64,000 nt of DNA, taken from Mayamaea pseudoterrestris. Taxonomy: Eukaryota; Bacillariophyta; Bacillariophyceae; Sellaphorales; Sellaphoraceae. This document shows, one piece after another, positions 13,162 through 18,840 of this stretch; positions within the stretch are counted from its first letter, which is position 1; every line of letters starts with the position of its first letter. The notes below the pieces were generated by a model. The model made no database searches. It saw nothing but the letters and a program-made list of their open reading frames with translations, and was not told the origin of the DNA. The DNA lies in NCBI GenBank assembly GCA_027923505.1, contig BROI01000035.1:124001-188000 (forward strand), read 5' to 3'. The translations under genes were made by a program, and so were the position numbers.

Positions 13162-16100
13162 TTATCGTGGTAGACCGTCCGACACTGTAGAACCTTCGTC
13201 GGTACCGAAACGAAATACTTGGTCTCGTCCAGCGCTGTCCAACGAACGTGTTGTCAATGGCACTGCAGGTTGCTGCCTACCAAGCAGGTTAAAGTGTCTT
13301 GGAACGTCGTCACCCTCAATCGATGTTGCACTGGATTCCGACTCAGAGTCGCTGTTGGGTTTACTTCGTCGAAAACGGAACTGGGAATAGTTTGGAGCGC
13401 TGGATTGGAGCGTTGGCCCGTTCGGATTAAACGCTATTCCTGCTTCAAACATATTTCTCCTATATTCCGATGCGGCGTTACCAAAATAGATTGCATGAGG
13501 TGACTTGCCAGCTGACCCAAAGTAAATTGGCTTTACTTCTGGCCGTGTCGATGTTTCGTTCGTAACCAACTGGGCTGCATCAGTATTTTCTTGGCTCAGC
13601 GAAAGGGATGCGAGAGGATGGTTCATGGTTCCGCCCAGTGCATCTCCTTTTGTCGGGCTCTTCGCTGCTACACTTTTAAAGGTATCGTTCATACCTGCGC
13701 AAGATCCGAATACGAGTTTCGTATCACACTCATCTCCATCGTCCACCATTTTGTCATCCTTCAGCGGCGTGCTAGCATGCTGCGTCCCAGCACTTTTGCC
13801 ACGGCTTTCAATTTCGTGAGCGGGTGCATCCTTCACGGTTTTGGCTGGGAGCGTCTCCCAGTCATCATCATTTTCACACAAAGGGAATTGTATTGCATGT
13901 TTCGCATCAATCTCTGCACTGCCCTGCGTGGCAAGGAACGGCGAAGGTGTGTTTGTCGTGCTGCTCCATGGTGTCGACGAAATGATTGACGTCCGGTCTG
14001 TAAAAGCTCCGGTAGAAGCATTAGTTGGCGAAGATGGTGGGGTTCTTTGCAGTGTTGACAGTAGCATTCGCTTGTTTCGACAATGTGTTTGCGGGCGACT
14101 TGACACTATTACTCGCCGCGCTCGATAGGACCTTAAATAGTCCTGTATCGCCAAAATCGCGTTATTTCTTTTTCGCAAATTACGCTGCGCTTCGTGTAGG
14201 CGTAACAGATGGGCTTTTCGTGCAAGAAAAATCAACCACGCGGATTGAATCCTTACTGCGGCGTCGTTCACAATCATTTTGCGTTTGAGCGCACGAAGAG
14301 CTAAACCACTGCGCTGTCTTGCCTGGAAACCACGCCATGAAGTCTGCAACATCGTAGTTGCGTATGTTACCCAAATCAGTTCGGCTGTGTACGCCTTCCT
14401 CGCTAGAAACTTCCTCGCCACATTCTGGATTCGGACGGTAGCAGACGCTCGTTGTGTAGCCGAATCATCTGTGGCAATTTTGCGAGCGCGGTTCATGGAC
14501 TGAATTCTAACTGCAGCAGAGTGCCTCCGCACAGCAAGTGCATCTACAAATTGTTGTCGCCGGTGGAAATCTCGTCGTGCGATAAAACCGCGACATGATC
14601 GCTGTATCGACATAGCAGCAGCATTCTGCAAATCTTCGCGCCTCTTATGAAGCGCCACCAAGAAGGCTTTTTTCGTGGTATATCCTCGCACTGTCTTTTG
14701 AATTATGACTATCGCTTGATGGGCCTGGTGCAAGTGTGTCCTCGCTAAGAACGCTCTGACCTTGCTTTGTACCAAGACAGCCGCAATGAATTTTCGATTT
14801 GCTCGCAGGCTCTGGTATCTTCGCCGGGTCATGAAAGCACGGAAGCTACTTTGAAGGCAAATTGTCGCAGTGTCTCGCTGGGCACTATATTTGCCATGTG
14901 ATGGTCGCCTCTTTTTTATTTTCAATCGCGCAAGGTAACCGCGAGCCACGCGCTGAACGAGCGCTGCCTTTGCCTGTTGTCGAACATGCGCGAATCGTTT
15001 CCTGGCTAGCGCACGGCGCACACATCGCTGAAGAGACAACACAACTGAGTGCTTTCCATCGTCCCAGTCAATGAAACTCAGTTGCAATGGATCTGTCGCT
15101 GAGTTGTGCTCATGGATTGGTTCGCTTGAGAAGTGTTGATTTGGTAATGATCGCGCGCGCGTGGACGAATTGATATTGCTTAGCTGAACCAGCAGGTGGG
15201 ACATTAAATTTGTCCTCAGCTCCTTTTCAATTAATTGGTAGCCCAGCAACGAGACCATCTCCATCTCGTGCATCGTCGCTACAGCAGCTTCGTTGGTAGG
15301 CGTGAGAGATTCGTTGATCGTCGCCGAAGCTGAATATCTGTCGGTCAACTCTTTCGCTTGTTCATGAACTAAAGGGTGCCCAACCGCGTTAATTTCGCTC
15401 TTGTAGTCAACTGATAATGAGTCCAATGGGTGCATATTCGCGCAAGAGAAACCGCATACGATGATCTCATCAATGTCATCCACCAAATCCACAAGGTGCT
15501 TGTTTGGAAAGGGAAACGGGGCAGCATCTAAAACTCGGCTTTTGCCGTCATTGGCCTGCGCTTCCAACGATGCCCCGCCAAGAAGTAGAAGCAGAGGATC
15601 TGCATATACATGAGTAACTCTGGATACATTTGACTCGGGAAGCAGAATGCAACGCGACGTGCTGTGACACGGCATCTCTGGTGGCCTAGTAGATTTAAAA
15701 GCCACTCTTTGCGGAAAGTACAGCAAAATTTGTTCCGCGAGGTGAACTTCCACTAGAGAAAGCCGCCTCTGAAAGCGCGTCGATTCCGAAGCATGTGCCT
15801 CATCGTCCAGGATTTCTTCCTCAAATTCATCGCCAGACAAAAAAAGCGGCTCCGTCGAATGTGCATCAAATTTTTTGCCAGTTCCTTGCAGACTAGGAAA
15901 ACCAAACTTGAATCCTTGCGTTTTGTCGATTGGCTGCTTTTGCATTTCGTCAGATTCATCAGGATTTCGTAGCAACGACCTCTCCAGTGCGAAGTTTAAG
16001 GAAGTCAAGCTATTCTCCGTCACCTTTTTTGTAACCGGAGGAACAATTGACGCTGCGAAGATTGGTCGAGCTAGGGACTTTGGTCGACTGACAGGAATCG

Positions 16101-18840
16101 GCCATCCAGATGTAGCTGCGGTCTGCGTCGTGTTCATCGCGTATGCTGCAGGTATTGCACGAGCAGCTTGCGATGGCGAGGATGCGAGATTGCCATTTTC
16201 TCTGCATTTACTGTTAAAGATGGATGGCGGTGTTGCGCCACCAGTGACAGTAGTGGCTATTGCAACGCTTGAATCATTCTTAACGACCAATCTTTCGTTA
16301 AAAGTGACAGTTGTTAAAATGCAATTTGGTCTCATGCAATGATCGGCCACTCGATAACCAGTTTCGTCTATCGGCACTGCATCGATGCCATGCTGGTAGC
16401 CAGTACTACGTTGACCAAAGGCTTCACTATCTAGAGACACTCCTTCTTTTTCCACTTCATTACCAGCTCGTGCAATAGCATCACCTTCGCTCTCGAGATC
16501 AATTAGCACATCATTCGCCGCTGAGATGCATGTGGATAATACTACTTGCTTGTGGTGATGGTTAATCATGACATAATCGTCCGACAAGCACTTTTTGGTG
16601 TGCTCTGCTTCCTCGTCAACCCCTTGCTGTTCAGACAACTCAACACCGTCACTTGCAATCGCGGAGGCGTCATCAGACACTGGTGCGTGTATCGATCCCT
16701 TATCACCGCCGCCGTCTTTGTCGTCTTGCGCGACTTCGAAAGCCTTGATCGAAGCATTGGAAGTCCCATCAACTTTCAAGGCAGTTTCTCGCTGCTGTGT
16801 CTTTTCAAAAGAAGTTGGTGTCGGCGTTTCAGCGACAGGAAATGTTAATGGAAAGACAGTCTGAGCTGATCCGAAATTTTCAATTAAAACGGAAGCATCG
16901 GGCAGTGTAAAAGATGTTGATTGAAAATTATTGCCAGTTACCGGGATAGTTATATCGAAACCAGTCGTTTGAGTGAGCTCCGGCATCTCCTGGTCAATGC
17001 TTTGTCGACAAGTCGAATCGTCCGAACTGCCAGTAGATGTTGAGTCAGCTAATTTGGAATCGTCATCATCATCCAAATTGCACCTGGAGTCTCGATATAA
17101 TGTAGAGGGCTTCATAACCATATTTGGCGCGGACTCCACGCCAAATATAGTTGACGTTCCTGATATCTGCTGCGGAACTCCAAATAGATCCTTACTTGAC
17201 AAAGCAGGCGTCGAGGTGGAATTTGACAAGGCGCCGCCGAAATAGGAAGTTTTGTTGTCAAACGCGCGGCCACCAAAGGACGCTTGTGCTGCAGACGCTG
17301 TTGGAGCCGGTCCAAAAGTCCCAGTGGAAAGCTGATTAAACGACGATTGCACTTGACCCCCACACGAAGCAAATGACAAGGGTTTCGTCATTGCTGTTGC
17401 CGCAGCGGCGCCAAATACGCTCGCCGATGGAATTGTAGCACGTTCCAGAGAAGAATCGATTTGTATGTAATGCGCCGTTTGCATTATTGCAGTAGGTGGA
17501 CTCTTTGAAATTGAAGATTGACCAAATGGCGTCTGCGACTGGCCGCTCCATGAGCCAAACGATAAGGGTGTCGTTGAAGCAGCAAGAGGGACGCCAAATA
17601 TAGTCGTTGATGATTGGGTGGCCGTTTGGAAAGAAGCGACTCGGGATACCTCCTCTTGAGTGGCAGCAGCATCACTACTAGATTCATGACTCGTCGTGAC
17701 TGTCACTTGCCCACAGTCTTGAATTATGATTTGTTCCTTGGGCCGTTGCTTTTCATCTGTCGGTACCATTCCAATCTGCTGCACAACCTGGATTCCACTA
17801 ACAACGCGACCAAATACCACATGCTTGCCATCCAATTGCTTGAGTGGCGCCTTCAGCGTAATAAAGAATTGGCTCGAGTTGCGATTCGTGCCATTGTTTG
17901 CCATGCTTACAAGTCCAACTTGTGAATGCTGCAAAAAGGCTTCATCGACAAAGTTTCCCCAAAGGTCCGTCTTTTGCGGCAGATTTGGAGCAAAAATGGA
18001 CTCTCCGCCCGTCCCATCAGCTTTGGTAAAGTCTCCGGCTTGAATGCAAAAGTTTGGCACGACGCGATGAACGTACGTGTTTCGATAGTGCAACGGTTTC
18101 TTCGAGCGGCCTACTCCCTTTTCTCCAGTGCAAAGGGCACGAAAGTTTTCGCAGGCTAGCGGACAGGTGTTTTGGAAAAGTTGAATCGTAATGCGACCGT
18201 ACTTTGCAATCTCCAAGTAGCAAAGAGTACCTTGGCAATCATCTGCTAATGGCGGAAGCGGAATGTTCGACTCGTATCGCGCGTGTAGCTTGGCGAACAA
18301 TTCCTCCTCCCGGCCCAGATACGATGCCAACGTCTTGTCAATGTTATCAAGTTTGGATGAATTAAACTTGGTATAAAAGTCAATGAGGCGCTTGCGGTAA
18401 TCAGTTGTTGCTGGAAAGAGTGCAGGTGCAGGTGAGAATGCCGGTGTTGTCGATGCGTATTGTTGCGTAGGAGCATCAATAGCCGCAGCCTTAGTAGCAG
18501 TTTCGTCAAGCGCAAGCGGAGTCTCCTTTACAGTGAATTCACTAGCTTCAAGTAAGCCTTCTGCTACTGTCGTAATTGTAGATTGCTGGCTCGAGGACTT
18601 TAAAGCAATTTGTGTAAAGGGGATTTGCACTGGAATAACAATGGGTGGCGACGGCGCAAGTCTAATGGGCTGAATCTTTCGTCGCTCCCGCGCAAACCAA
18701 GCATCTCGGCGAGCTCGAAAGTAGGGACTTGATTCTCTCGACGGAACACCAGTAGCAGTCAGGTAAAGATTGTTACTTCCAGTGGGAGCATGCAGCGGCG
18801 GCGTGGAGGACGTTTCCCCTGATGAGGACTGCGACTCCAT
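13162..18840 (-). CDS. Giant cyclophilin / FG-repeat / IQ-motif protein
   Basis: One uninterrupted 5.7-kb exon encoding 1892 residues. About 148-192 is a helical motif (RLIDFYTKFNSSKLDNIDKT then GREEELFAKLHARY). About 204-381 is a cyclophilin-type peptidyl-prolyl isomerase: HRVVPNFCIQAGDFT keeps the equivalents of CypA Arg55, Phe60 and Gln63 (R259, F264, Q267), and SMANNGTNRNSSQFF and LDGKHVVFGRV follow. Residues about 410-570 carry spaced FG dipeptides (SFGSW, PFGQ, VFGA, TFGP, SFGG, YFGG, LFGV, IFGV) in a Ser/Thr/Gln-rich sequence, as in FG nucleoporins. About 1266-1530 holds ten good IQ motifs plus one degenerate, such as VQRVARGYLARLK. More FG sites follow near the C-terminus (YFGSA, YFGNA). 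The cyclophilin plus FG combination suggests a nuclear pore location; the IQ array suggests calmodulin-type light chains. The overall protein has no named family known to me. Confidence 0.85.
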   Translation of the reverse strand: MESQSSSGETSSTPPLHAPTGSNNLYLTATGVPSRESSPYFRARRDAWFARERRKIQPIRLAPSPPIVIPVQIPFTQIALKSSSQQSTITTVAEGLLEASEFTVKETPLALDETATKAAAIDAPTQQYASTTPAFSPAPALFPATTDYRKRLIDFYTKFNSSKLDNIDKTLASYLGREEELFAKLHARYESNIPLPPLADDCQGTLCYLEIAKYGRITIQLFQNTCPLACENFRALCTGEKGVGRSKKPLHYRNTYVHRVVPNFCIQAGDFTKADGTGGESIFAPNLPQKTDLWGNFVDEAFLQHSQVGLVSMANNGTNRNSSQFFITLKAPLKQLDGKHVVFGRVVSGIQVVQQIGMVPTDEKQRPKEQIIIQDCGQVTVTTSHESSSDAAATQEEVSRVASFQTATQSSTTIFGVPLAASTTPLSFGSWSGQSQTPFGQSSISKSPPTAIMQTAHYIQIDSSLERATIPSASVFGAAAATAMTKPLSFASCGGQVQSSFNQLSTGTFGPAPTASAAQASFGGRAFDNKTSYFGGALSNSTSTPALSSKDLFGVPQQISGTSTIFGVESAPNMVMKPSTLYRDSRCNLDDDDDSKLADSTSTGSSDDSTCRQSIDQEMPELTQTTGFDITIPVTGNNFQSTSFTLPDASVLIENFGSAQTVFPLTFPVAETPTPTSFEKTQQRETALKVDGTSNASIKAFEVAQDDKDGGGDKGSIHAPVSDDASAIASDGVELSEQQGVDEEAEHTKKCLSDDYVMINHHHKQVVLSTCISAANDVLIDLESEGDAIARAGNEVEKEGVSLDSEAFGQRSTGYQHGIDAVPIDETGYRVADHCMRPNCILTTVTFNERLVVKNDSSVAIATTVTGGATPPSIFNSKCRENGNLASSPSQAARAIPAAYAMNTTQTAATSGWPIPVSRPKSLARPIFAASIVPPVTKKVTENSLTSLNFALERSLLRNPDESDEMQKQPIDKTQGFKFGFPSLQGTGKKFDAHSTEPLFLSGDEFEEEILDDEAHASESTRFQRRLSLVEVHLAEQILLYFPQRVAFKSTRPPEMPCHSTSRCILLPESNVSRVTHVYADPLLLLLGGASLEAQANDGKSRVLDAAPFPFPNKHLVDLVDDIDEIIVCGFSCANMHPLDSLSVDYKSEINAVGHPLVHEQAKELTDRYSASATINESLTPTNEAAVATMHEMEMVSLLGYQLIEKELRTNLMSHLLVQLSNINSSTRARSLPNQHFSSEPIHEHNSATDPLQLSFIDWDDGKHSVVLSLQRCVRRALARKRFAHVRQQAKAALVQRVARGYLARLKIKKRRPSHGKYSAQRDTATICLQSSFRAFMTRRRYQSLRANRKFIAAVLVQSKVRAFLARTHLHQAHQAIVIIQKTVRGYTTKKAFLVALHKRREDLQNAAAMSIQRSCRGFIARRDFHRRQQFVDALAVRRHSAAVRIQSMNRARKIATDDSATQRASATVRIQNVARKFLARKAYTAELIWVTYATTMLQTSWRGFQARQRSGLALRALKRKMIVNDAAVRIQSAWLIFLARKAHLLRLHEAQRNLRKRNNAILAIQDYLRSYRARRVIVSSRPQTHCRNKRMLLSTLQRTPPSSPTNASTGAFTDRTSIISSTPWSSTTNTPSPFLATQGSAEIDAKHAIQFPLCENDDDWETLPAKTVKDAPAHEIESRGKSAGTQHASTPLKDDKMVDDGDECDTKLVFGSCAGMNDTFKSVAAKSPTKGDALGGTMNHPLASLSLSQENTDAAQLVTNETSTRPEVKPIYFGSAGKSPHAIYFGNAASEYRRNMFEAGIAFNPNGPTLQSSAPNYSQFRFRRSKPNSDSESESSATSIEGDDVPRHFNLLGRQQPAVPLTTRSLDSAGRDQVFRFGTDEGSTVSDGLPR

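Follow-up and report, generated by a model that had tools for sequence, protein, structure and literature searches.

The window analysed here, a stretch of DNA of 64,000 nucleotides, raises the question of what kind of protein would join a cyclophilin, a cluster of FG dipeptides and an array of IQ motifs in a single chain, and whether such a protein belongs at the nuclear pore. The initial annotation described the combination as one unbroken exon of 1892 residues and saw in it an independently built pore component. Its coordinates and its length from the ATG prove exact, to which we add that the gene lies on the minus strand, and the unbroken exon is borne out at the level of the reading frame, which runs for 1892 codons without a stop. 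We also recognised an extra feature absent from that description, a small module upstream (N-terminal) of the cyclophilin. The features, from the N-terminus onward, are as follows.

13162..18840, minus strand: the complete 1892-aa open reading frame, from its ATG to its TAA with no internal stop.
18265..18399, minus strand: a module of ~42 residues at residues 148-192, with the pattern RLxxFYxxxNPxKLxxVDxxLxxYxGxExxLFxxLxxKY.
17710..18216, minus strand: the cyclophilin domain, residues 209-377 (PF00160, E 2.6e-44).
17041..17685, minus strand: the FG cluster, residues 386-600, with 9 FG (Ser/Thr 29%, charged 13%).
15061..17040, minus strand: the linker, residues 601-1260, with 3 FG including one FKFG and no Pfam domain over cut-off.
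14107..15033, minus strand: ten IQ-like motifs, residues 1270-1578 (PF00612, 8 stretches, E 3.2e-25).
13204..13710, minus strand: the C-terminal part, residues 1711-1879, with 4 FG (LVFG, IYFG twice, FRFG).

A cyclophilin, an FG cluster and an IQ array do occur together in this one frame, an unusual combination whose parts belong to known kinds: the FG protein, the multidomain cyclophilin and the IQ scaffold. Two Pfam families, cyclophilin and IQ, rise above cut-off on the 1892-residue protein, and NCBIfam adds only distant bacterial cyclophilin models, all below cut-off. Across the genome searched (30.6 Mb in 41 contigs), none of the 23 matches to the whole protein at E <=0.001 is a second gene of the same architecture; the 22 others cover the cyclophilin only (20) or the IQ part only (2), and the figure of 23 is a lower bound, as 25 of the 40 candidates were scored. 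Whole-protein searches of viral and prokaryote contigs, in which only close relatives are reachable and none were expected, gave 5 and 12 pattern matches, respectively, with 0 confirmed in either. The literature offers no direct precedent within the scope covered: among the matches listed from the open-licence PMC literature, no title or abstract start describes a cyclophilin + FG + IQ architecture, none joins at least four of the terms cyclophilin, FG repeats, IQ motifs, calmodulin and nucleoporin, and the PMC full text holds no match for cyclophilin + IQ motif + oomycete. A survey of oomycete cyclophilins reports 23 further partner domains, and its main text makes no mention of IQ motif, IQ domain, PF00612 or nucleoporin (PMC7168621).

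Is the FG signal more than composition? Shuffled versions of the protein average 4.45 FG dipeptides, and none of 10,000 attains the 17 counted in the real sequence, of which one falls within the cyclophilin fold. Residues 386-600 hold 9 against a shuffle mean of 0.96 (0 of 10,000 reaching 9), while a count of 4, as found in residues 1580-1892, was reached by 88 of 10,000; these regions were picked after inspection of the sequence, and the whole-protein test is independent of that choice. When every stop-to-stop frame no shorter than 250 aa is compared over both strands of the window (28 in total, counting the 1892-residue frame), the best 215-residue stretch contains 9 FG here versus 3 in the next-best frames. 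Shuffles and window frames thus bear out an FG cluster where a nucleoporin-like run had been described; the genome also has regions in which FG is denser. Those regions, measured in Nup98, at the C-terminus of Nup214 and at both ends of a Nup62/58-like protein, reach 5.7-8.8 FG per 100 residues with 0-6% charged residues, whereas residues 386-600 have 4.2 per 100 with 13% charged, a share that rises to 22% in the linker and C-terminal part.

The same ranking emerges from counts over fixed stretches (the Nup54-like and Nup62/58-like labels were assigned by eye). The best 215 residues here, with their 9 FG, exceed those of the Nup54-like protein, which reach 6, and those of the Nup214 frames covering its N-terminus and middle, which reach 2-4, and fall below the Nup62/58-like protein (11), the C-terminal frame of Nup214 (13) and Nup98 (23), the last recognised by its Nucleoporin2 domain (E 7e-37) and carrying 46 FG in an 803-residue frame. 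Over whole frames, the values per 1000 residues are 9.0 here, 13.8 for the Nup54-like protein and 3.7, 6.1 and 6.6 for the other, partly overlapping Nup214 frames. The Pfam FG model PF13634 has no match in our protein at E <=1; over the genome it finds three places, none above cut-off and none at this gene, and it stays below cut-off on Nup98 of the same genome as well. With its lower density, higher charge and missing PF13634 match, this FG stretch is weaker than the classic barrier regions and nearer to what an accessory FG protein would carry.

A second line of evidence comes from the module in front of the cyclophilin. Elsewhere in the genome it matches C21 (E 9e-6 and 1e-4), C3 (1.9e-4), C2 (0.0016) and three weaker places. 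Both of the two closest other copies lie in Nup214 (C21), and when the second Nup214 copy is used as the query, the 1892-residue protein is its best match elsewhere (E 1e-5). The gene on C3 is DENR (DENR_N + SUI1), and the frame on C2 carries a rhodanese domain. Against each of six other copies—two in Nup214, one each in DENR and the rhodanese protein, and two in proteins labelled by eye—the copy here scores above all 2,000 shuffles. The weaker copies come from proteins whose labels, assigned by eye, are DUF726-like hydrolase and PDZ-like protein, and the module loci are L012, L018, L029, L030, L017 and window 18265-18399. No Pfam family reaches cut-off on the six module copies, and a five-sequence module profile run against the PDB returned six matches at E <=10, none of them credible. 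The best PDB match, to an engineered cytochrome trimer (E 0.00092), is the sum of three fragments, each of which fails alone, and is therefore not counted as a relative of the module. Since DENR and the rhodanese protein share it, the module is ruled out as a pore-specific signature and does not by itself prove a pore link; its sequence does link the 1892-residue protein to Nup214. As a small uncharacterised element of Nup214, DENR and several other proteins that lacks a Pfam model, it merits attention either way.

The C21 gene is read as Nup214 because of its domain set: one frame combines a propeller of the NUP159/214 family (PF16755, above cut-off at E 1.9e-8) with EF-hand pairs and RanBP-type zinc fingers, and the frames after it hold both copies of the module and, at the C-terminal end, a part rich in FG. 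These frames probably form one gene, located at L024:5855-9901 and L017:1-7606. Our protein shares with Nup214 the ~42-residue module, present there in two copies, and the FG motifs, but has none of the propeller, the EF-hand pairs and the RanBP-type zinc fingers. This Nup214 has features of its own: two EF-hand pairs and two RanBP-type zinc fingers share the frame of the propeller, and there are tandem repeats of ~41 residues, each with PFG or PLG. EF-hands within a Nup214 look unusual; the pairs match centrin and calmodulin chains, and by eye they are without the Glu at loop position 12, the calcium-binding residue of an EF-hand.

Tentatively, and with somewhat less than an even chance of being right, we read the 1892-residue protein as a lineage-specific accessory FG protein that acts at the nuclear pore, close to it, or on transport complexes. 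This reading draws on the FG clustering above shuffles and above the 27 other window frames, on a peak FG count above those of the Nup54-like protein and the other Nup214 frames, on the placement of the FG motifs in Ser/Thr-rich sequence of modest charge, and on a module whose nearest copies are those of Nup214; a real cyclophilin, an IQ region predicted as long helices, and the lack of FG enrichment in two other long IQ proteins of the genome also argue for it. Judging by composition, the FG cluster and the scattered FG motifs would bind transport receptors (Mex67/NTF2-like or karyopherin), and this binding would recruit it to export complexes or the pore. The cyclophilin, from its sequence, would bind and probably isomerise proline-containing segments of a client. 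The IQ array may form a long helical rod coated by EF-hand proteins that resemble calmodulin, centrin or light chains, acting as a stiff spacer or a calcium-sensitive tether, and the module before the cyclophilin could serve as a small helical protein-binding element of the kind that Nup214 also uses. Against a place at the pore stand the lower FG density and higher charge relative to the dense FG regions, the PF13634 non-match, and the presence of the module in DENR, the rhodanese protein and proteins without a known pore link; nor do the Pfam matches of the protein include a known scaffold-anchoring domain for the pore. On balance, a nuclear pore role is plausible.

The closest functional precedent for an accessory FG protein is Sac3/GANP of TREX-2, which likewise pairs FG motifs with a helix for an EF-hand protein (Cdc31/centrin). 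According to the sections of PMC4509546 that deal with it, the ten N-terminal FG motifs of Sac3N from C. thermophilum bind Mex67:Mtr2 and not the karyopherins tested, and Cdc31, an EF-hand protein, wraps around the CID helix of Sac3 jointly with Sus1. Since those FG motifs act without binding to the karyopherins tested, FG motifs need not mean residence at the pore. The EF-hand partner is engaged by a CID helix in Sac3 and would be engaged by an IQ array here, where a cyclophilin is present too, and our protein resembles Sac3 by apparent functional analogy, not by descent. Membership of the Sac3/GANP family itself is ruled out, as the middle domain (SAC3_GANP/PCI) has no match in the protein at E <=1.

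The IQ array supplies the strongest case for a different reading. The ten motifs reported initially hold up under a relaxed IQ core, which occurs 11 times in residues 1260-1600, a count that no shuffle of 10,000 attains and that compares with an average of 1.47 among them; two occurrences overlap, leaving ten distinct motifs. Pfam marks eight stretches and the fuller IQxxxRGxxxR-type pattern fits four. Spacing is mostly 23-34 residues, with the last motif following a 67-residue gap. An AlphaFold2 single-sequence model (mean pLDDT 62.9) renders residues 1255-1600 almost wholly helical, as a series of long helices, and a link to calmodulin-type light chains is a reasonable suggestion from the motifs. 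A calmodulin- or centrin-bound IQ rod could therefore be the core of a cytoskeletal or centrosomal/basal-body scaffold to which the cyclophilin is accessory, its FG cluster being ordinary Ser/Thr-rich disorder or a binder of partners other than transport receptors. Long IQ arrays are indeed not rare in this genome: two other frames, L055 (C36) and L056 (C29), carry 64 and 31 relaxed IQ-like cores, and the IQ run of L055 is, as we take it, ASPM-like. The scaffold also sits well with an FG density under that of dense FG regions and with the silence of PF13634. The same comparison, however, cuts the other way, for neither of those long IQ-array proteins, which share with ours an IQ motif array in a predicted helical rod, has an FG cluster (0 FG in a 2329-residue stretch and 5 FG in a 1941-residue frame), so FG enrichment does not accompany IQ arrays in general; neither place is among the genome's cyclophilin matches. 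A cluster that no shuffle reproduced and that tops all 28 window frames, the recurrence of FG at the C-terminus, and a module common to Nup214 all weigh against the scaffold, which we regard as unlikely while still deserving serious consideration.

The cyclophilin bears on a further alternative. Three alignments to solved cyclophilins, along with the PF00160 match, substantiate a domain with its catalytic Arg, Phe and Gln (HRVVPNFCIQ), as initially described, and the LDGKHVVFG block is kept in the same alignments. The residue aligned with Trp121 of CypA, the cyclosporin-contacting position, is Gln in all three, from which weak binding of cyclosporin would be predicted. An AlphaFold2 single-sequence model of residues 140-395, which span the module and the cyclophilin, has a mean pLDDT of 33.6, too low to be relied on. 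Within the best 60 of 170 solved relatives, the top match is a plain cyclophilin (158 bits), PPIG scores 149, 147 and 146 bits, NKTR 140 and Cyp40 130, and the two RanBP2 cyclophilin chains among the matches listed lie below these three at 114 bits. Such a ranking speaks for a nuclear shuttling or mRNP/splicing-linked cyclophilin of the PPIG/NKTR/Cyp40 type, its FG motifs serving to ride with export receptors, and FG-bearing export factors are known, Sac3 being one (PMC4509546). The ranking is blunted, though, by the plain top match and by several chains named just cyclophilin that equal PPIG within the same best 60 of 170, and Pfam finds neither a TPR nor an RNA-binding domain in the protein. 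This alternative, which overlaps the accessory FG reading, appears improbable as an explanation in its own right.

The remaining cyclophilins of the genome call for brief remarks. The best other place, L003 (C2), shows 45% identity and is a 414-aa frame with a C-terminal extension of unassigned kind. On C8, two sets of cyclophilin matches with equal scores lie 20 kb apart, reflecting either a recent duplication or an assembly duplicate. A 21,498-residue 'open frame' returned by the cyclophilin search spans long N runs and is therefore no evidence of a gene. Outside this genome, AtCyp19-3 of Arabidopsis, a cytosolic plant cyclophilin by the title of PMC4552658, is similarly a cyclophilin linked to calmodulin, and neither an IQ array nor an FG cluster is named in the title or the opening of the abstract.

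How, then, does the protein relate to RanBP2/Nup358, which resembles it in joining FG motifs and a cyclophilin within one very large protein? RanBP2 begins with a TPR/helical domain, ends in a cyclophilin and carries several Ran-binding domains as well as zinc fingers. Our protein has no Pfam match to a Ran-binding domain, TPR or zinc finger at E <=1; a genome-wide search for Ran-binding domains found one, which lies in a 166-aa frame elsewhere. Its cyclophilin occupies residues 209-377 of 1892, near the N-terminus rather than C-terminal as in RanBP2, an IQ array is present instead, and the RanBP2 chains score 114 bits versus 158 for the top match, so that membership of the RanBP2/Nup358 family is ruled out. 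The initial view that the protein is not RanBP2 and was built separately is thereby well supported. The C-terminal place of the RanBP2 cyclophilin is stated in the relevant lines of PMC3930637; by its table rows, a survey including two diatoms and Phytophthora marks Nup358 under opisthokonts only (PMC2951903), and a passage of the review PMC8421043 calls RanBP2/Nup358 vertebrate-specific. Given the missing domains, the low score and the restriction of Nup358 in the survey and the review, the likeness is best read as convergence.

A bolder version of convergence would make the protein a lineage-peculiar pore-filament component, with an EF-hand-laden IQ rod through which calcium stiffens or repositions an arm bearing the FG motifs and the cyclophilin. 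Here, the partner could even be the degenerate EF-hand pairs of Nup214, and an IQ/EF-hand clamp would then join two FG proteins at one face of the pore. We consider this extension doubtful. Were the protein at the pore in any capacity, cyclophilin and FG motifs would have been combined independently for a second time. That would imply that evolution twice arrived at a useful design, prolyl isomerisation in the neighbourhood of FG-rich transport proteins, and nuclear transport in algae would gain an EF-hand/IQ link that might respond to calcium.

These readings presuppose a single gene. Codon usage, scored after training on five other stretches of the same genome, favours the annotated frame: across residues 1-1800 it outscores the five alternative frames in 16 of the 18 100-codon blocks. 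The blocks in which it does not, residues 1301-1400 and 1501-1600, both fall in the Lys/Arg-rich IQ region of unusual composition. Only one minus-strand ORF of at least 150 aa exists within 13162..18840, the 1892-residue frame itself. An artefact, in which two adjoining genes are fused by a chance open frame or an in-frame intron is taken as coding, might exploit the two deviating blocks and the fact that introns without in-frame stops are possible, but is very unlikely in view of the stop-free length, the blocks favouring the frame across the cyclophilin, the linker, most of the IQ region and the C-terminus, the FG motifs that flank the IQ array on both sides, and the lack of a rival minus-strand ORF of at least 150 aa at these coordinates.

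Finally, we surveyed the nature of the host genome. The chlorophyll-binding family has 53 matches there, several exons of a single gene being counted among them, so the genome is that of a photosynthetic organism, an alga. For one such protein, among the best 60 of 430 PDB matches, the top entries are multi-repeat LHCI chains (9vfj) and the next are proteins named fucoxanthin chlorophyll a/c proteins, which is compatible with a red-plastid alga such as a diatom without proving one. The photosystem reaction-centre family PF00124 is not matched anywhere in the assembly. An oomycete was considered in view of the stramenopile label of the initial annotation; a search for the oomycete family of elicitins, run without a positive control, found none, and the stramenopile label itself is neither confirmed nor refuted by these results. 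Also present are two near-identical acidic membrane proteins of ~940 residues (by eye), L020 (C25) and L021 (C37), the latter near the contig start of C37; the pair represents a recent duplication or an assembly duplicate.
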